From Arthrobacter sp. SLBN-122 (GTDB taxonomy: Bacteria > Actinomycetota > Actinomycetes > Actinomycetales > Micrococcaceae): a stretch of DNA of 64,000 bases. The stretch covers positions 2,356,001 through 2,420,000 of the forward strand of contig NZ_VFMS01000001.1 in assembly GCF_006715165.1 (NCBI RefSeq), read 5' to 3'. A program made the position numbers and the translations under genes. The notes under the pieces were generated by a model. It searched no databases. It was not told where the DNA came from and saw only the letters and a list, made by a program, of their open reading frames with translations. Positions within the stretch are counted from its first letter, which is position 1. Each line of letters starts with the position of its first letter. Of the stretch, positions 38,927 through 50,002 are shown piece after piece.

Positions 38927-39940
38927 TCAGCCAGCCAGAAGGGTGGCGGCTTCCTGGCGGGTGGTGCCGGAGTCCTGGATTCCGTCGGCGATGTGGGCGA
39001 GTTCGGCGGGGATGTCCCGGCCTTTTTCCCGCATGGCGGTGGCCCAGAGCCGGCCGGCGCGGTAGGAGGAGCGGACCAGCGGCCCGGACATGACGCCGAG
39101 GAAGCCGATTTCCTGGGCTTCGTGCTGGAGGTCCACGAATTCCTGGGGTTTGACCCAGCGGTCCACGGGCAGGTGCCGTTCGGACGGGCGGAGGTATTGG
39201 GTGATGGTGATCAGGTCGCAGCCGGCGGCGTGGAGGTCGCGGAGGGCCTCTGAAATTTCTTCGCGGGTTTCGCCCATGCCCAGGATGAGGTTGGACTTGG
39301 TGACCATGCCCAGGTTCCGGCCCTGGGTGATGACGTCCAGGGACCGTTCGTAGCGGAACGCGGGGCGGATCCGCTTGAAGATCCGGGGTACGGTTTCGAC
39401 GTTGTGCGCGAAGACCTCGGGGGCGGAGTCGCAGATCGCCTTGATGTGGTCGGGGTTGCCGGAGAAGTCCGGGATGAGCAGTTCCACGCCGGTGCCGGGG
39501 TTCAGTTCGTGGATTTTGCGGACGGTTTCGGCGTAGAGCCAGACGCCTTCGTCTTCCAGGTCGTCGCGGGCCACGCCGGTGACGGTGGCGTAGCGCAGGG
39601 CCATGGACTGGACAGAGCGGGCCACCTTGGTGGGTTCGAACATGTCCACGGGCGAGGGTTTGCCGGTGTCGATCTGGCAGAAGTCGCAGCGGCGGGTGCA
39701 TTCGGAGCCGCCGATCAGGAAGGTGGCTTCCTTGTCTTCCCAGCATTCGAAGATGTTGGGGCAGCCGGCTTCTTCGCAGACGGTGTGCAGGCCTTCCTTT
39801 TTCACCAGGTTCTTCAGCCCGACGAACTCCGGACCCATCTGGACCTTGGCCTTGATCCATTCCGGTTTGCGTTCCACCGGGACCGCAGCGTTGCGCTGCT
39901 CGATCCGCAGCATCTTCCGGCCTTCAGGTGCCAATGTCAT
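38927..39940 (-). CDS. lipA: Lipoyl synthase
   Basis: A 337-residue radical-SAM enzyme that inserts two sulfurs into octanoyl groups on carrier proteins. [12 protein letters not shown] binds the auxiliary iron-sulfur cluster, CTRRCDFC the SAM-cleaving cluster, and RSSY near the C-terminus supplies its conserved serine ligand. AAAGGA precedes the ATG. Its position after gcvP-gcvT-gcvH-glyA-sdaA makes sense because the H protein needs lipoylation. Confidence 0.97.
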
Positions 39941-39992
39941 GGTTGTTTCCTTTGTTTGATCTGGGGCTCTTGCCGGGCGGGGTTGGTGGTGG

Positions 39993-41444
39993 TCAGCATT
40001 CGACGACGTTGACGGCGAGGCCGCCCATGGCGGTTTCCTTGTATTTGGAGGACATGTCCTTGCCGGTTTCGCGCATGGTGATGATGACTTCGTCCAGCGA
40101 GACGCGGTGGGTGCCGTCGCCCCAGAGCGCCATTTTCGCGGCGTTGATCGCTTTCGCGGCGGCGATCGCGTTCCGTTCGATGCAGGGGACCTGGACCAGC
40201 CCGCCGATCGGGTCGCAGGTCAGGCCCAGGTTGTGTTCCATCGCGATCTCCGCGGCGTTCTCCACCTGCGCCGGGGTCCCGCCCATCACCTCGGCCAGGC
40301 CCGCGGCGGCCATCGAGGACGCCGAACCCACCTCGCCCTGGCAGCCGACCTCGGCCCCGGAAATGGAGGCCTGTTCCTTGTAGAGCACCCCGACCGCGCC
40401 GGCGCCGAGCAGGAACCGCACCACCACATCGTCCCGGTCGGCCTGGCTGGCCTGGTCCATGCCCGGGGCGAAGTGCAGCGCGTAGAACAGCACCGCGGGA
40501 ATGATCCCGGCCGCCCCGTTGGTGGGGGCGGTGACCACCCGGCCGCCGGAGGCGTTCTCCTCGTTCACCGCCAACGCCACCAAGTTAACCCACTCCTGCC
40601 AATACCTGGGGTCGAAGCGGACCGCGTCCCAGTCCGCCTCCTGGCCGCTGTGCTGTTCCTCGTCCTGGGTGTGCGCGGATTCCTTCTTGAGCCGGTCGTA
40701 CCAGTCAGGGGCGCGGCGGCGGACCTTCAACCCGCCCGGCAGCACCCCTTCGCGCTTCAGCGAGGTGGCCACGCAGTTTTCCATCACCGACCAGATCTGC
40801 AGCAGCCCCTCCCGGATCTGCTCCTCATCCCGGGAGGCTTTTTCGTTCACGAGCATGACATCGGCGATGCCCAGCCCGGTCACCGCGCAGTGCTCCAGCA
40901 GTTCCGCGGCGGTCCGGAACGGCAGCGGCAGCTCCTGTTTGGACGCGTCCAGTTCCTGCTGCGCCGCGTCCTCCTCACCCTCCCGGACAATGAACCCGCC
41001 ACCGACCGAGAAGAACGTCGCCGCATGCAACACCGAACCTTCCGCGTCAGAGACCGTGAACGTCATCCCGTTCGTGTGCCGCGGCAACACCGTCAACGGC
41101 CGCAGCACCATGTCCTTCACCCCATACGGCAACGGCACCGCACCGGCCAGGTTCAACGTCCCGGTCTCCGCGATCGAGGCCAGCCGCTCCTCCACCTCAT
41201 CCGGCAGGATCAGCTCCGGATGAAACCCCTCCAACCCCAGCAGGACCGCCGTCATCGTCCCGTGCCCGTGCCCCGTCGCGGCCAACGACCCATACAAATC
41301 CACCCGCAACGACCCCACCCCAGCCAGCACCCCCGAGGCCTTGAGTTCCTCAGCGAACACCGCAGCAGCCCGCATCGGCCCCACAGTATGAGAAGACGAA
41401 GGGCCAATACCGATCGAAAAGAGATCAAAGACTCCGACTGCCAT
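39993..41444 (-). CDS. sdaA: L-serine ammonia-lyase, iron-sulfur, single-chain
   Basis: A 483-residue L-serine dehydratase that makes pyruvate and ammonia. The N-terminal beta domain has [18 protein letters not shown]; the C-terminal catalytic domain has the cysteines of the labile 4Fe-4S cluster in [24 protein letters not shown] and VPCIERNAI. Alpha and beta parts are fused, as in E. coli SdaA. The start is the ATG at 41444 behind AAGGA; the frame is open further upstream without a start signal. It drains serine made by glyA, in line with the glycine cleavage genes. It ends 52 bp before lipA. Confidence 0.95.
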
Positions 41445-41617
41445 AACTAAATCCTTACTGAAACTGTGGTGAGGTGCGTGGCTGGTTTGGGCTGGAGCGG
41501 GCAGGACATCCTCTGCGTGCCCGGGGCCCACGCCGTCCGGGTTCCCTGGCCGAGCTTGCGAGGCTAGGGGGACGGTGGGGAGCACGCTGCCGGATACCCC
41601 GCCCACTCCGAGGGCAC

Positions 41618-41804
41618 GTCACCTAAGCGACAGGACCAGCAGCGACGACTTACTGGACAGGCATGCAAGCACGTCCAGGACACGGGTTGGGCGGAGCAGG
41701 AAAACACACGCACGTGGTCCGCGGCCGACCGTAGCCTGTACTGCACCCCTTCGTCGCTCGCCTTGGTGACTGCCCCACGCCCCATCGGGTGCGGCCTCCG
41801 GCAG
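41618..41804 (-). ncRNA. Candidate structured RNA element in the 463-bp glyA-sdaA gap
   Basis: Nested complementary segments: a 13-nt closing stem 41618-41630 with 41758-41770, continued by a perfect 7-bp stem 41642-41648 with 41751-41757; inside are a 6-bp hairpin (41653-41658 with 41673-41678) and an 11-bp hairpin (41685-41695 with 41718-41730, with a 2-nt bulge). A fifth stem CTGCC/GGCAG closes 41770-41804. On the minus strand the closing stem has one mismatch and one G-U pair; on the plus strand it has two mismatches, which favours an RNA in the sdaA leader. The inner 11-bp hairpin favours the other strand slightly. It matches no RNA family I know. The flanking 41445-41617 and 41805-41907 hold no gene I can support. 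Confidence 0.4.
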
Positions 41805-41907
41805 CATGCGTCTAAGGGAGCGTCACGTCCGCTTAGCGGGCGTCAACGCGACCGAGCATGCAGAGGAGGCCGGACCCGACGGGCAAAGGTGGCCACGGCC
41901 GAAAAAC

Positions 41908-43236
41908 TCAGGCGAGGGGCGCGATGCCCGGGTAGAGCGGGTGGGCCTTCGCCAACTCCTCGACGCGGTGACCGAGCCCGGAAAGGTCCGCGTCGGCGTC
42001 GGCAATCAATGCCTCGGCGATGATGTCCGCAACCTCGCGGAAGGCATCTTCGCCGAAGCCGCGGGTGGCCAGGGCGGGGGTGCCGATACGGAGGCCGGAG
42101 GTGACCATCGGCGGGCGTGGGTCGAAGGGAACGGCGTTGCGGTTGACGGTGATGTCGATGGCGGCGAGCCGGTCTTCGGCCTGCTGTCCGTCGAGGTCGC
42201 AGTTCCGCAGGTCGACGAGGACCAGGTGCACATCCGTGCCGCCGGAGACAACGCTGATGCCTTTGGCCGTGACGTCGGGCTGGACCAGCCGTTCTGCCAG
42301 GATGCGGGCACCGGAGAGGACGCGTTCCTGCCGTTCGCGGAACTCTTCGGATGCGGCGATCTTGAACGCCACGGCCTTGCCCGCGATCACGTGTTCCAGG
42401 GGGCCGCCCTGCTGGCCGGGGAACACAGCCGAGTTGATCTTCTTGGCGATGTCGGCGTCGTTGGTCAGGATGATGCCGCCGCGCGGACCGGCGAGGGTCT
42501 TGTGCGTGGTGGATGTGGTGACGTGCGCGTGCGGGACAGGGGACGGGTGCAGGCCCGCGGCCACCAGGCCGGCGAAGTGCGCCATGTCCACCATGAGGTA
42601 GGCGCCCACGGAATCAGCGATGCGGCGGAACTCGGCGAAGTCGAGCTGCCGGGCGTAGGCGGACCAGCCGGCAACGATCAGCTGCGGCTTGTGCTCCTGG
42701 GCCAGGCGCTCCACTTCAGCCATGTCCACCGTGTGGGTGTCCTCGCGGACGCCGTAGGGCACCACGTTGTAGAGCTTGCCGGAGAAGTTGATCCGCATGC
42801 CGTGCGTGAGGTGGCCGCCGTGGGCCAGGTTGAGGCCCATGATGGTGTCGCCGGGCTTGATTAGTGCGTGCATCACCGAGGCGTTGGCCTGCGCGCCGGA
42901 GTGCGGCTGGACATTCGCGAAGCCGGCCCCGAACAGGGCCTTCAGCCGGTCAATGGCAAGCTGCTCGATCACGTCGACGTGCTCGCAGCCGCCGTAGTAG
43001 CGCTTGCCAGGATAGCCTTCGGCGTACTTGTTGGTCAGCACCGAGCCCTGCGCCTGCATTACTGCTGCGGCAGTGTGGTTCTCGGAAGCGATCATCTCCA
43101 GGCCATCGCGCTGCCGGCCCAGTTCGTCGTCGATCTTTGCCGCAATCTCCGGATCCAGATTGGCGAGGTCGGCGTTCAGGCTGGGCGAGACTACCTGCTC
43201 AAAGGCGACGGTCCCCGCCGCTGCAGCCCCGCTCAC
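41908..43236 (-). CDS. glyA: Serine hydroxymethyltransferase
   Basis: A 442-residue PLP enzyme that interconverts serine and glycine with tetrahydrofolate. Lys246 in [13 protein letters not shown] holds [13 protein letters not shown] and [15 protein letters not shown] are family signatures. The GTG at 43236 overlaps the gcvH stop (GTGA), so translation is coupled; the first 18 residues are an extension relative to most SHMTs. It connects the glycine cleavage genes upstream with sdaA downstream. Confidence 0.96.
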
Positions 43237-43616
43237 AGCTCGCCGCCGTTCGCTGCTGCGTACTCCGCGGCCGACATCAGCGGGCCTTCCTCGGTAACGG
43301 CCACCTTGAAGAGCCACCCGGCGCCGTAGGGGTCGCTGTTGATCAGGGCGGGGTCCGAGACCACGCCGTCATTGATCTCGATGACCTCACCGGTTACCGG
43401 GGCATAGAGGTCGGAGACGGATTTGGTGGATTCCACCTCGCCGCAGGTATCGCCGGCCGTCACCGTGGAGCCGACCTCGGGAAGGTCAACGTACACGATG
43501 TCACCCAGGGCATCGGCAGCCACGGCGGAAATCCCGATCCCTGCAGGGCCGGATCCGTCAACCGCAACCCACTCGTGTTCGGCGGAGTACTTCAGTTCAG
43601 AAACAACTTTGCTCAT
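43233..43616 (-). CDS. gcvH: Glycine cleavage system H protein
   Basis: A 127-residue lipoyl carrier. Lys65 in [20 protein letters not shown] is the lipoylation site; SAEHEWV at the start and GWLFKV near the end are conserved. It shuttles the aminomethyl group from GcvP to GcvT. GGAAG precedes the ATG; it lies 30 bp after gcvT and its stop overlaps the glyA start. Confidence 0.96.
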
Positions 43617-43646
43617 GATTCTTCCTTACGTTTGAAAACTGTTGGA

Positions 43647-44783
43647 TTACTTTTGGCGCTTGTAGAACGGGAGGTTGACGACTTCGAAGCGCTCGGGCTT
43701 GCCGCGGAGGTCGATGTCCAGGACGGTGCCGGCTTCAGCGAATTCGACGTCGACGTAGGCCATGGCAACGGGGTAGCCGAGGGTGGGGGAGGGCTGGCCG
43801 GAGGTCACTTCGCCCACCAGGCTGCCATCCTTGAGGACGGGGTAGTGGGCACGTGCGGCGCGGCGGCCGGTGCCCTTGAGGCCCACCAGCTTCTGCCCGA
43901 TGGTTGAACCGACTCCGGCAGCCCTGATGGCGGCCAGTGCTTCCCTGCCCACGAAGTCGCTCTCCTTTGCCAGCGACACCACGGGGCCCAAACCGGCAGC
44001 GTAGGCGTTGACGTGGCGGGAGAGCTCGTTGCCGTAGAGCGGCATGCCTGCCTCGAGGCGGAGGGAGTCGCGGCAAGCCAGTCCGGCGGGGACCAGGCCG
44101 GAGCCGTCGCCGGCTTCAAGCAGTGCTTCCCACAGGGCGGGTGCGTCCACGTTGGGAACGTAGATTTCGAAGCCGTCCTCGCCCGTGTAGCCGGTCCGCG
44201 CCACGAGCAGGTCCTGCCCGTTAAGTTCCACCTCGACGGCGGCGTAGTACTTCAACTCCCGGACCAGTGCGTGCTGTTCGGCCGCGACCAGCTTCAGGAG
44301 GATCGCCTCGGAATTCGGTCCCTGCACGGCAATAAGCGAGGTCTCAGCGGAGGCGTCCTGCACAGTGACGTCGAAGTTGGCGGAGCGCTCCAGGAGTTCC
44401 TTCGCCACAACAGCCGCGTTGCCAGCGTTGGGAACCACCAGGAAGACGTCGGTGCCATCCTGTGCGGCGGGGCGGCGGTAGGTGATGAGGTCATCGATGA
44501 TGCCGCCGTCGGCGTCGCAGATCAGCGAGTATTTCGCTTTTCCGATCGCCACCGCTGACAGTTTGCCGGCCAAGGCATAGTCCAGGAACGCGGCGGCATC
44601 GGGCCCGGTCACCCAGACCTCACCCATGTGGGAAAGGTCGAACAGGCCGGCCGCGCTGCGCACGGCATGGTGTTCGGCCAGCTCCGAGCTGTACTTGAGC
44701 GGCATCTGCCACCCGCCGAAGTCGGTGAAGGAGGCTCCGGCCTTCTTGTGCTGCTCAAAGAGAGCGGTGTAATTCTCAGTCAT
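43647..44783 (-). CDS. gcvT: Glycine cleavage system aminomethyltransferase (T protein)
   Basis: A 378-residue folate enzyme that moves the methylene group from lipoyl-GcvH to tetrahydrofolate and releases ammonia. SFTDFGGWQMPLKYSS, FDLSHMGEVWV (folate and catalytic aspartate region), ARTGYTGEDGFEIYV and CRDSLRLEAGMPLYGNE are diagnostic. It starts 9 bp after the gcvP stop, with AAGGA before the ATG. Confidence 0.96.
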   Translation of the reverse strand: MTENYTALFEQHKKAGASFTDFGGWQMPLKYSSELAEHHAVRSAAGLFDLSHMGEVWVTGPDAAAFLDYALAGKLSAVAIGKAKYSLICDADGGIIDDLITYRRPAAQDGTDVFLVVPNAGNAAVVAKELLERSANFDVTVQDASAETSLIAVQGPNSEAILLKLVAAEQHALVRELKYYAAVEVELNGQDLLVARTGYTGEDGFEIYVPNVDAPALWEALLEAGDGSGLVPAGLACRDSLRLEAGMPLYGNELSRHVNAYAAGLGPVVSLAKESDFVGREALAAIRAAGVGSTIGQKLVGLKGTGRRAARAHYPVLKDGSLVGEVTSGQPSPTLGYPVAMAYVDVEFAEAGTVLDIDLRGKPERFEVVNLPFYKRQK

Positions 44784-44792
44784 TGGAAGTCC

Positions 44793-47666
<2,874 letters not shown>

Positions 47667-47716
47667 GAGGAACTCCAGTTCTGGCCGGCCGAAGGTGGCA
47701 CGGCGTGGGATGGGTT

Positions 47717-47918
47717 CCTCCCCGCTCTGTATTGGACCTGAGAGATTCCGCGTTGCCTGCTCTTGGCAGGGGGCCGCTTGCACCGTCGGTGAACCAGGCA
47801 GAAGCCCGGTTGCTTTCCAGAGTCGCCTCGCCATGACGGTACGTGGGCCTGAGAGATTCCTGGGGAGGATTTGCTCCTACGGCGCCTGCCCGGTGTTTCG
47901 CGGGAGGACTCTCCCGTC
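47717..47918 (-). promoter_or_regulatory. Tandem glycine riboswitch controlling gcvP
   Basis: Two consecutive aptamers on the minus strand. The first opens with GACGGGAGAGTCCTCCCG, then GCCGTAGGAGCAAA and ATCTCTCAGGCCCACGTACC; a linker GACTCTGGAAAGCA leads to the second, with CCGACGGTGCAAGCGG and ATCTCTCAGGTCCAATACAG, ending at GAGCGGGGAGG. These are the conserved glycine-aptamer features found before gcv operons of Actinobacteria, where glycine usually turns expression on. The ATG lies 50 nt after the last conserved base. Confidence 0.93.
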
Positions 47919-47960
47919 ACAGCTCGAAAGGCTTATTAAAATGTGGGTGATTCGGCTCAC

Positions 47961-47989
47961 AAGGTATCGGGATTAGCTGCCGGTGGCAA
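47961..47989 (-). promoter_or_regulatory. Putative promoter of the gcv operon
   Basis: -35 TTGCCA (47989-47984) and -10 TACCTT (47966-47961) with a 17-bp spacer, about 43 bp upstream of the riboswitch 5' end on the minus strand. Confidence 0.5.
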
Positions 47990-48061
47990 ATCGGACGGCT
48001 GCCACAGGCGGATGCATCCGGCCCGTGACGCCCTTCTGTCCCGCTTGTGTCGGAGCAGGTT

Positions 48062-48090
48062 TGACTTTCGATGGTGACGGACACCACACT
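48062..48090 (+). promoter_or_regulatory. Putative promoter of the permease leader
   Basis: -35 TTGACT (48062-48067) and a weak -10 CACACT about 18 bp on, roughly 130 bp upstream of the plus-strand riboswitch. The hexamers are only moderately good. Confidence 0.3.
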
Positions 48091-48221
48091 GAACCCCGGG
48101 ATTGGCACCGCCGGTGGCCGGCTCAACGTATCCGGAGCGGCCCACCAGCCGGCGTCCATCCCAATGCATGACCCGCCGCGGCCCCCAGGGCTGCGGCTTC
48201 CAACTGAACACGCCTTCGACC

Positions 48222-48410
48222 TGCGGCGGGAGAGCCCTGCCCGGTACATTCAGCAGGCGCCGTAGGAGCAAACCCTCCCCAGGAAACTCTCAGGCCCACG
48301 TACCGCCGCGGACAGGCAACTCTGGAAAGCAGCCAGGCAAGTCCTGGCTCACCGACGGTGCAAGCGGCATGGGCTGCGGAAACTCTCAGGTTCACTACAG
48401 AGCGGGGAGG
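48222..48410 (+). promoter_or_regulatory. Tandem glycine riboswitch controlling the amino-acid permease
   Basis: Two aptamers with the same order of conserved blocks as the gcvP leader: GGCGGGAGAGCCC, GCCGTAGGAGCAAACCC, AACTCTCAGGCCCACGTACC, the linker CAACTCTGGAAAGCAG, then CCGACGGTGCAAGCGGC, AACTCTCAGGTTCACTACAG and the end GAGCGGGGAGG. The start codon at 48461 lies 50 nt downstream, as in gcvP. It makes expression of the permease depend on glycine. Confidence 0.92.
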
Positions 48411-48460
48411 AATCAAATCTTTTGCGGTACCCAAGTGCCGCTTTATCGATGGAGTTCCTC

Positions 48461-50002
48461 ATGGCGATTCATCCCCCCACGTCCAACGGCGAACCTGCGC
48501 GCAACGAAGCCGTAAACACGCCCGCCCGCAGCGAGCCACCCCACCTTGAACGGCAGCTCAGCAACCGCCACATCCAGCTCATCGCCATCGGCGGAGCGAT
48601 CGGCACCGGCCTCTTCATGGGCTCCGGCAAGACCATCTCCGCCGCCGGCCCCTCCGTGATCTTCGTGTACATGATCATCGGCTTCATGCTCTTCTTCGTC
48701 ATGCGGGCCATGGGCGAACTGCTGTTGAGCAACCTGAACTACAAGTCCTTCAGTGACTTTGCCGCCGACCTCCTGGGGCCGTGGGCCGGCTTCTTCACCG
48801 GCTGGACCTACTGGTTCTGCTGGGTGATCACCGGAATCGCGGACGTGATCGCGATTGCCGGCTACTCCAAGGAGCTCTGGCCGGGGCTTCCGCTGTGGAT
48901 CCCGGGCCTGGCCACGGTGGGCATCCTGCTCCTGCTGAACCTCGCCACTGTCAAGGCTTTCGGCGAGACCGAGTTCTGGTTCGCCCTCATCAAGATCATC
49001 GCCATCGCTGCCCTCATCATCGTGGGCCTCTTCATGATTTTCACCGGGTTCCAGAGCGACGCGGGCACGGCAAGCTTCACCAACCTGTGGAGCCATGGCG
49101 GGTTCTTCCCCAACGAGTTCATGGGCTTCGTGGCCGGATTCCAGATCGCCGTGTTCGCCTTCGTGGGCATTGAGCTGGTGGGCACCACGGCAGCCGAGGC
49201 CAAGAACCCCGAGCGCACGCTGCCCAAGGCCATCAACGCCATCCCTGTCCGCGTGCTGCTGTTCTACGTCGGCGCGCTGGTCATCCTGATGGCGGTCACC
49301 CCGTGGACCCAGTTCGCCGCGGGCCACAGCCCCTTCATCGGCATGTTCTCCCTGGCCGGCCTCGGCGCCGCGGCCACAGTGGTCAACCTGGTGGTCCTCA
49401 CCTCGGCCATGTCCTCCGCGAACTCCGGCATCTACTCCACCTCCCGCATGGTCTTCGGACTGGCCCAGGAAGGCGACGCCCCCGGCATGTTCGGCCGCCT
49501 GTCCACGAGGAAGGTGCCCAGCAACGCGCTGTTCCTGTCCTGCGTCCTGCTGCTGTCCGGCGTCGTACTCATGTATGCCGGCCAGGACGTTGGCAAGGCC
49601 TTCGAAATGGTGACCACCGTGTCCGCCGTCTGCTTCGTCTTCGTCTGGTCGATCATCCTGGCCAGCTACATCTCCTTCCGCCGCCGCCGGCCGCATCTGC
49701 ACGCGGCGTCCAAGTTCAAGATGCCCGGTGGCATCCCCGCCGTGTGGGTGGTTTACGTGTTCTTCGCCTTCGTCCTGTGGGCCCTGACCACCCAGCCCGA
49801 CACCCTCGTTGCACTGCTGGTGACCCCCATCTGGTTTGTCGTCCTTGGCGTGGCGTGGGCCATCCTGCGGCGCCGTCCCGCCCACCTGGCCCGCTTCGAG
49901 GTCTTCCAGGCTGAACTTCGGGCCGACCAGGCTGCCGCCGGGCACAACGGCGGCGTGGATTCCGGCGCGGCAGGGCATGATGTCCAGGAGGCCAGGAAGT
50001 AA
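48461..50002 (+). CDS. Amino acid permease, D-serine/D-alanine/glycine (CycA)-like APC family
   Basis: A 513-residue APC-superfamily transporter with 12 predicted helices. HLERQLSNRHIQLIAIGGAI and GTGLFMGSGKTISAAGPSV form the family start, FVGIELVGTTAAEAKNPER is the helix 6-8 signature, and SANSGIYSTSRMVFGLAQEG follows. CycA-type proteins import glycine, D-alanine and D-serine with protons. The ATG at 48461 has GGAG 6 nt upstream; the long leader before it carries a tandem glycine riboswitch, which supports glycine as the cargo. The C-terminal tail is acidic/neutral and disordered-looking. Confidence 0.9.
   Translation: MAIHPPTSNGEPARNEAVNTPARSEPPHLERQLSNRHIQLIAIGGAIGTGLFMGSGKTISAAGPSVIFVYMIIGFMLFFVMRAMGELLLSNLNYKSFSDFAADLLGPWAGFFTGWTYWFCWVITGIADVIAIAGYSKELWPGLPLWIPGLATVGILLLLNLATVKAFGETEFWFALIKIIAIAALIIVGLFMIFTGFQSDAGTASFTNLWSHGGFFPNEFMGFVAGFQIAVFAFVGIELVGTTAAEAKNPERTLPKAINAIPVRVLLFYVGALVILMAVTPWTQFAAGHSPFIGMFSLAGLGAAATVVNLVVLTSAMSSANSGIYSTSRMVFGLAQEGDAPGMFGRLSTRKVPSNALFLSCVLLLSGVVLMYAGQDVGKAFEMVTTVSAVCFVFVWSIILASYISFRRRRPHLHAASKFKMPGGIPAVWVVYVFFAFVLWALTTQPDTLVALLVTPIWFVVLGVAWAILRRRPAHLARFEVFQAELRADQAAAGHNGGVDSGAAGHDVQEARK

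Follow-up and report, generated by a model that had tools for sequence, protein, structure and literature searches.

Tandem glycine riboswitch leaders of gcvP and cycA in Arthrobacter sp. SLBN-122 as probable old copies of one leader that carried its start codon

The divergent genes gcvP, for glycine dehydrogenase, and cycA, for an amino acid permease of the APC family, were studied in a window of 64,000 nucleotides (nt) of Arthrobacter sp. SLBN-122 (GCF_006715165.1, NZ_VFMS01000001.1, positions 2,356,001-2,420,000 of the forward strand), in which each gene follows a tandem glycine riboswitch leader. Both leaders probably descend, as old copies, from a single glycine ON-riboswitch leader with tandem aptamers, which was copied together with its start codon, repeatedly in this family. 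The copied unit would extend from aptamer 1 through the ribosome binding site (RBS) and start codon to the first codons; it was most likely born in front of gcvP, and cycA would thereby have received a gcvP-like N-terminus (MAIHP/MTIHP). MTHFR-domain, sdaA, lipA and glyA genes appear to have received copies of the unit as well, some fused in frame and others with a short open reading frame (ORF) whose stop lies at or close to the start of the following gene.

A first-pass annotation of the window had described gcvP (minus strand) and cycA (plus strand) as each bearing a two-aptamer glycine riboswitch, with 50 nt between GCGGGGAGG and the ATG in both leaders and 25-nt start blocks (47677-47653 on the minus strand, 48450-48474 on the plus strand) that differ at one base, and all of this was borne out. 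Rfam cmscan at the gathering threshold returned three of the four aptamers (48217-48315 and 48316-48410 on the plus strand, 47827-47926 on the minus strand), all four exceeded the cut-off in the whole-genome search, and both leaders, not just one, are thus valid matches to the glycine model, each with tandem aptamers and one downstream platform. Base-by-base local alignment of the two leaders scored 310, whereas the best of 200 mononucleotide shuffles reached 95, and TGGAGTTCCTCATGNCG was present twice in the genome, at the gcvP and cycA starts. An additional in-frame ATG was located 12 nt upstream of the called cycA start. Equal spacing is weak evidence alone, because only 8 of the 21 divergent gcvP-cycA pairs, this one included, showed it. 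The bases after the gcvP ATG were CATCCG in this strain, CAATCG in G010 and G028, and CATTCG in G001 (L, G and g numbers are our labels for loci, genomes and genera); the two adjacent changes that create the match to cycA are absent from the sister strains and could stem from chance or from conversion of a short tract. In this strain, coincidence accounts for part of the agreement, both in the exact spacing and in the bases after the ATG. The two leaders (47653-48474) form an imperfect inverted repeat with a spacer of about 290 nt.

A glycine aptamer was found in 60 of the 61 genomes of the genus searched. Reading 92 loci (L007-L098) together with the window gave 120 leader entries; the 103 distinct leaders among them came from 51 of these genomes. 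The start block GGAGTTCC was present in all 64 gcvP, all 27 cycA, all six MTHFR-domain and both sdaA leaders, and in two of three lipA leaders. The longer block TGGAGTTCCTCATGNCG occurred 33 times in 21 of the 61 genomes (reversed control pattern, 0), and an aptamer motif lay within 320 nt upstream in 42 of 43 occurrences at the 30 loci returned, overlapping-locus repeats counted; the block is therefore part of this leader rather than a ribosome site in general use. The sole occurrence that lacked the motif nearby (L431, genome G006) was situated just 5' of an MTHFR-like gene. Among homologue sets of 30 loci, which hold best matches only, one per genome, leader copies were exceptional, being found at one of the 30 sdaA loci (locus L035 came from a separate search and is outside this count), at two of the 30 lipA loci and, after six MTHFR loci with no anchor had been left out, at three of the 24 readable MTHFR loci.

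The N-termini behind these leaders were compared by means of a loose pattern, [MLV][TAS][ITNV][HQ], which was fitted by all 27 CycA proteins with a leader in the genus. Among the 30 CycA loci of the family, a leader abutted the gene in five, and all five fitted the pattern (MAIHP, MTTHS, MTIHP, MTIQK and MTIHQ; three from this genus and two from another, g28, whose loci L127 and L264 also show divergent gcvP-cycA leaders). Five other loci had aptamers further upstream and other N-termini. In the remaining 20, the 520 nt upstream of the GGAIG motif contained no CTCTCAGG, and 19 of them were off-pattern at every in-frame start listed; within this group, L305 is similar to the paralogue in the same genome that does bear a leader, and L289 has a leader further away (L107). 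In some other genera (g8, g10, g22, g23 and g28), though not in all, the gcvP product itself starts with MT[IV].

Probable remnants of gcvP were found in front of other genes as well. At MTHFR locus L370, a full tandem leader with a TTG start is followed by 36 recognisable gcvP codons, within a 76-codon ORF that ends TGATCCATG at the MTHFR gene. Other MTHFR N-termini read MTPQS (L044), MTIQS (L055 and L057) and MTIRS (L056), and at glyA locus L113 the residues MTIQSPST are joined to GlyA sequence. At sdaA loci L034 and L035, a gcvP-like start opens a 17- or 34-codon ORF ending TAAGGA just before sdaA; at L097, a 34-codon ORF that is not gcvP-like ends TAATG at MTHFR. Such ORFs may relay translation to the gene that follows. 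The idea that the sdaA relay ORF had taken its stop from glyA was rejected, as other sdaA upstream regions show only a similar TAAGGA/TTAGGA ribosome site. Hairpin, RBS and start without an aptamer motif within 700 nt were observed at two MTHFR genes (L366 and L371), the start block of L431 has no such motif within 320 nt, and that of L368 is degenerate. In G019 and G058, sdaA, lipA and MTHFR adjoin each other behind a leader of their own. Relay ORFs were also sought at the five CycA loci with aptamers further upstream, one of which (L309) was unreadable: L306 has a 64-codon ORF with its stop 20 nt before cycA, L292 a 12-codon ORF whose stop is 100 nt short of cycA, too far for simple coupling, and L308 and L310, from another genus, a 33-codon ORF that lies 3' of a glycine leader, does not begin at a leader start block and runs into the cycA start (ATGA), possibly a translational coupling of different origin. 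The block before unrelated genes, the gcvP-like N-termini of CycA and the 36 gcvP codons at L370 support the proposal of the first-pass annotation that the leader was duplicated as a unit with its start codon.

In the platform, the GAGGAAC/U that follows aptamer 2 can form a helix with the GUUCCUC beside the start codon and so cover the Shine-Dalgarno (SD) sequence GGAG; of the 86 distinct platform folds, 85 contained this anti-SD helix (mean z -2.6), and the central hairpin varied. GGGGAGG, which overlaps the 5' arm of the helix by four bases, is the complement of the CCUCCCC loop in aptamer 1. When the GGGGAGG strand was listed beside the loop for 101 genus leaders, CCTCCCC was found in 100 and the remaining leader kept the pairing via G-U. 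Class-wide, 35 families gave 143 distinct combinations, of which 137 paired over at least 5 bp, G-U allowed, and six over only 3-4 bp; this count leaves out 22 entries, some of them repeat listings of a locus, with no aptamer pattern or an unreadable strand after P1. Compensatory changes were seen as CCUCUCC/GGAGAGG in L237 and L239 versus CCUCCCC/GGGGAGG in L250, ACCCC/GGGGU in L208 and L259, ACUCCCC/GGGGAGU in L140 and L225, and UCUCCCC/GGGGAGA in L156, L176 and L229. This pairing was considered as a new element and the idea dropped, since it equals the P5 pseudoknot, which passages of PMC13104608 credit to Torgerson et al. and describe as frequent in ON-switches and absent in OFF-switches.

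No terminator-like site was found at 47600-48500, and the RBS lies in a predicted helix, which together point to a translational expression platform. In the proposed mechanism, GAGGAAC/U would pair with GUUCCUC when glycine is lacking, so that GGAG would be buried; with glycine, the docked aptamers would let the CCUCCCC loop pair with GGGGAGG as P5, taking four bases (GAGG) from the anti-SD helix and freeing the start. The straightforward reading of the overlap between P5 and the anti-SD helix is competition, whereby glycine is predicted to switch on gcvP and cycA and would raise translation for both breakdown and uptake. The notion in the first-pass annotation of one sensor design for glycine uptake and breakdown thus holds for the sequences, where it extends to sdaA, lipA, glyA and the MTHFR-domain gene, and stays a prediction as to the response itself.

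It is unlikely that shared ancestry is right and the cycA switch nevertheless has the opposite sign, glycine turning uptake off as in symporter-type riboswitches. OFF-versions of that type are described in passages of PMC13104608, and parts of PMC5829553 discuss glycine-dependent downregulation in connection with the glycine riboswitch before a sodium:alanine symporter gene of Streptococcus pyogenes; like them, the cycA leader precedes an amino acid transporter gene. However, both leaders studied here have the P5 complementarity expected of the ON type, which according to the same passages of PMC13104608 is absent from OFF-versions, the cycA anti-SD layout is the same as that of gcvP, and CycA belongs to the APC permeases and not to the sodium:alanine symporters.

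Another account invokes functional constraint only: unrelated leaders would have converged on the start block since GUUCCUC must pair with GAGGAAC and GGAG serves as RBS. The block is indeed the 3' arm of a conserved helix, and the arms fit slightly better than shuffled partners (observed 5.16 versus a shuffled mean of 5.02, reached by 0 of 300 shuffles, with relatedness uncontrolled). Pairing does not explain the 36 gcvP codons before MTHFR at L370, the gcvP-like N-termini of leader-bearing CycA, or the block kept at MTHFR genes that have no nearby aptamer motif, and the fusion at L113 likewise argues against convergence as the sole cause, which is quite improbable.

The age of the copies was judged from a maximum-likelihood tree of 101 leaders, rooted at the midpoint, from which two leaders with a single aptamer match were left out. 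The 27 cycA leaders required two label changes and the 62 gcvP leaders eight (shuffled means, 24 and 31), whereas MTHFR leaders, with at least three changes, were nested among gcvP leaders; 27 of 98 inner branches were open (support below 80). In 21 divergent pairs, gcvP-cycA identity within and between genomes was 0.813/0.811, 0.736/0.754, 0.673/0.660, 0.762/0.758 and 0.533/0.521 for five segments, and the partner from the same genome was the best match in only 2, 2, 1, 0 and 0 of the pairs. The largest within-genome excess was that of the platform, with 15 of 21 pairs above their own between-genome mean, and the relation was reversed in aptamer 2 (5 of 21). Because identity within genomes is about that between genomes and orthologues (gcvP-gcvP, cycA-cycA) are more alike (0.65-0.94), the gcvP-cycA leader pair is, on these alignments, an old duplication. 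Concerted evolution, in which the divergent leaders as an inverted repeat would be kept alike by gene conversion, as the first-pass annotation had offered, is very improbable: the small platform excess and the change of gcvP from CAATCG to CATCCG, matching cycA in this strain alone among those compared, speak for it, and conversion of the whole leaders was rejected on the lack of a clear within-genome excess and the grouping of the tree mostly by gene. For gcvP and MTHFR leaders the case for conversion is better, with 0, 1 and 1 differences over linker and aptamer 2 in G025, G034 and G008 (more in G016) and, at L057, a platform variant private to the gcvP and MTHFR leaders of one genome; recent copying would give the same picture, and either is possible there.

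Several observations weigh against the proposal that one ON-type leader was copied from gcvP with its start codon. Among the 103 distinct genus leaders, the only APC permease leader (L008) had no GGAGTTCC block, and lipA leader L071 had a shorter helix in that register. The N-terminal pattern is so loose that it was fitted by 42 of 64 gcvP leaders, with 22 not fitting, and by one of the 20 leaderless CycA proteins (L295, MSNQQ). The gcvP and cycA platforms differ in the central hairpin (platform identity 0.67 within genomes), and the cycA anti-SD helix, with a G-U pair, scored 5.3 versus 6.1 for gcvP. The permutation test of P5 was modest, the observed mean for the first 66 distinct combinations being reached by 6 of 500 shuffles with relatedness uncontrolled, and the slight difference in arm fit given above belongs here too. 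The presumed direction of copying, out of gcvP, depends on midpoint rooting and the distribution of N-termini, and MTHFR copies L366, L371 and L431, with the degenerate L368, show that some are not glycine-controlled. No sigma-70-like promoter was found between the two leaders (47653-48474), and separate transcription of the two is therefore assumed.

Copying of the ON-type leader with its start codon, as favoured here, leads to a wider proposal, which we consider somewhat better than an even chance: the gcvP leader may be a transplantable glycine-control cassette, each copy of which would place a gene under glycine control through fused gcvP codons or through a truncated-gcvP relay ORF terminating at or near the next start. 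Pieces split off from the gcv operon (sdaA-lipA-MTHFR, lipA-MTHFR or MTHFR) would get a copy of their own, and some would later lose the aptamers and keep the borrowed start. Likely intermediates of riboswitch regulon growth would thus be readable, namely the complete leader that retains 36 donor codons, the in-frame fusions, the relay ORFs and the start blocks without aptamers. If the ON sign is true, a transporter would be induced by its own substrate via the platform of a catabolic gene, a feed-forward arrangement unlike the symporter-type OFF glycine switches. For annotation, N-termini behind riboswitches may be borrowed.

The riboswitch class itself is known; what is new is the repeated copying with donor start codons, from which chimeric N-termini or relay ORFs result. 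Searches of open-access papers, mostly through listings and passages, turned up no description of a start codon copied along with a glycine leader, of such a leader before MTHFR or lipA, or of gcvP-derived relay ORFs. According to parts of the sources, two glycine riboswitches activate the glycine cleavage system in Streptomyces griseus (cited in PMC5829553), glycine riboswitch regulons include metabolism, transporter and some serine genes (PMC3766115), the targets in Actinobacteria reported by Crum et al. are mainly gcv (74%) and other glycine metabolism (22%) (PMC6944388), and translational control is preferred in that phylum (PMC6944388, PMC13104608). The leaders described here share with the tandem gcv ON-type riboswitch (RF00504) two aptamers with one platform, P5 between the C-tract of aptamer 1 P3b and the G-tract after aptamer 2, and, as far as the passages cited go, glycine cleavage targets and translational control; what sets them apart is that other genes received the platform in one piece with the start codon and first codons. 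A translational platform controlling a short ORF before a gene is likewise described in passages on riboswitch-controlled small upstream ORFs in mycobacteria, the Mbox/rv1805A of M. tuberculosis (PMC12810186) and a B12 riboswitch (PMC11260477), whereas the relay ORF here can be a carried gcvP remnant (36 codons in L370, a few in L034 and L035; that of L097 is not gcvP-like).

Table 1. Features of the gcvP-cycA region, in window coordinates
Feature	Position	Strand	Basis
gcvP, glycine dehydrogenase (aminomethyl-transferring)	44793..47666	-	TIGR00461, 1314.6 bits
cycA, D-serine/D-alanine/glycine-type APC permease	48461..50002	+	NF008272, 735 bits (cut-off 732); PF00324
gcvP leader, glycine aptamer 1 (RF00504)	47827..47926	-	57.1 bits
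gcvP leader, glycine aptamer 2 (RF00504)	47717..47830	-	45.7 bits, whole-genome search; absent from window cmscan list
gcvP leader, CCUCCCC of aptamer 1 P3b loop, putative P5 5' half	47862..47868	-	Sequence; CCTCCCC conserved in genus leaders
gcvP leader, GGGGAGG just past aptamer 2 P1, putative P5 3' half	47717..47723	-	Sequence; complement of the loop
gcvP leader, GAGGAAC, predicted anti-SD helix 5' arm	47714..47720	-	Fold; consensus fold of 86 platforms
gcvP leader, GUUCCUC directly 5' of ATG, predicted anti-SD 3' arm	47667..47673	-	Sequence and fold; overlaps GGAG (47676-47673)
gcvP 25-nt start block: RBS, ATG (47666-47664), MTIHP	47653..47677	-	24 of 25 bases common to cycA block
cycA leader, glycine aptamer 1 (RF00504)	48217..48315	+	61.8 bits
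cycA leader, glycine aptamer 2 (RF00504)	48312..48410 (window cmscan, 48316-48410)	+	40.9 bits, window cmscan; 48 bits, whole-genome search
cycA leader, CCUCCCC of aptamer 1 loop, putative P5 5' half	48274..48280	+	Sequence; genus leader comparison
cycA leader, GGGGAGG past aptamer 2 P1, putative P5 3' half	48404..48410	+	Sequence; genus leader comparison
cycA leader, GAGGAAU, predicted anti-SD helix 5' arm, one G-U pair	48407..48413	+	Fold; pairing comparison
cycA leader, platform hairpin GCGGUAC-CCAA-GUGCCGC	48424..48441	+	Fold
cycA leader, GUUCCUC 5' of ATG, predicted anti-SD 3' arm	48454..48460	+	Sequence and fold; SD GGAG (48451-48454)
cycA 25-nt start block: RBS, ATG (48461-48463), MAIHP	48450..48474	+	Alignment with gcvP block
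gcvT	43647-44783	-	NCBIfam match over cut-off
gcvH	43233-43616	-	NCBIfam match over cut-off
glyA, start unsure	41908-43317	-	NCBIfam match over cut-off
sdaA	40152-41444	-	NCBIfam match over cut-off; place from homologue searches
Second lipA	38933-39940	-	NCBIfam match over cut-off; place from homologue searches

The genes gcvT, gcvH, glyA, sdaA and the second lipA (38933..44783, minus strand) are probably the rest of the gcv operon, co-transcription being assumed. The second lipoyl synthase gene thus stands with sdaA on the gcv strand, the other lipA copy lies at C1:3720146, and two lipA matches were also seen in many relatives. Two further RF00504 matches in this genome precede a second gcvP (C1:2782181) and an APC permease gene (C1:843795). 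The second gcvP (L007, C1:2781000-2784500), 85% identical over the 675 residues compared, carries a glycine leader of its own and starts with GTG, and a second sdaA copy further on (C1:2786971-2788263) suggests a second gcv cluster. The permease gene (L008, C1:842500-846500) follows a tandem glycine leader whose start block, GGAGATTCTCTATG, is unlike the common one and whose P5 complementarity is kept; the next ORF encodes what we take to be an acetamidase/formamidase-like protein. Similar leader DNA was also present on six plasmid records (Arthrobacter, Paenarthrobacter, Rhodococcus and Nonomuraea), which makes plasmids a possible route for leader copies.

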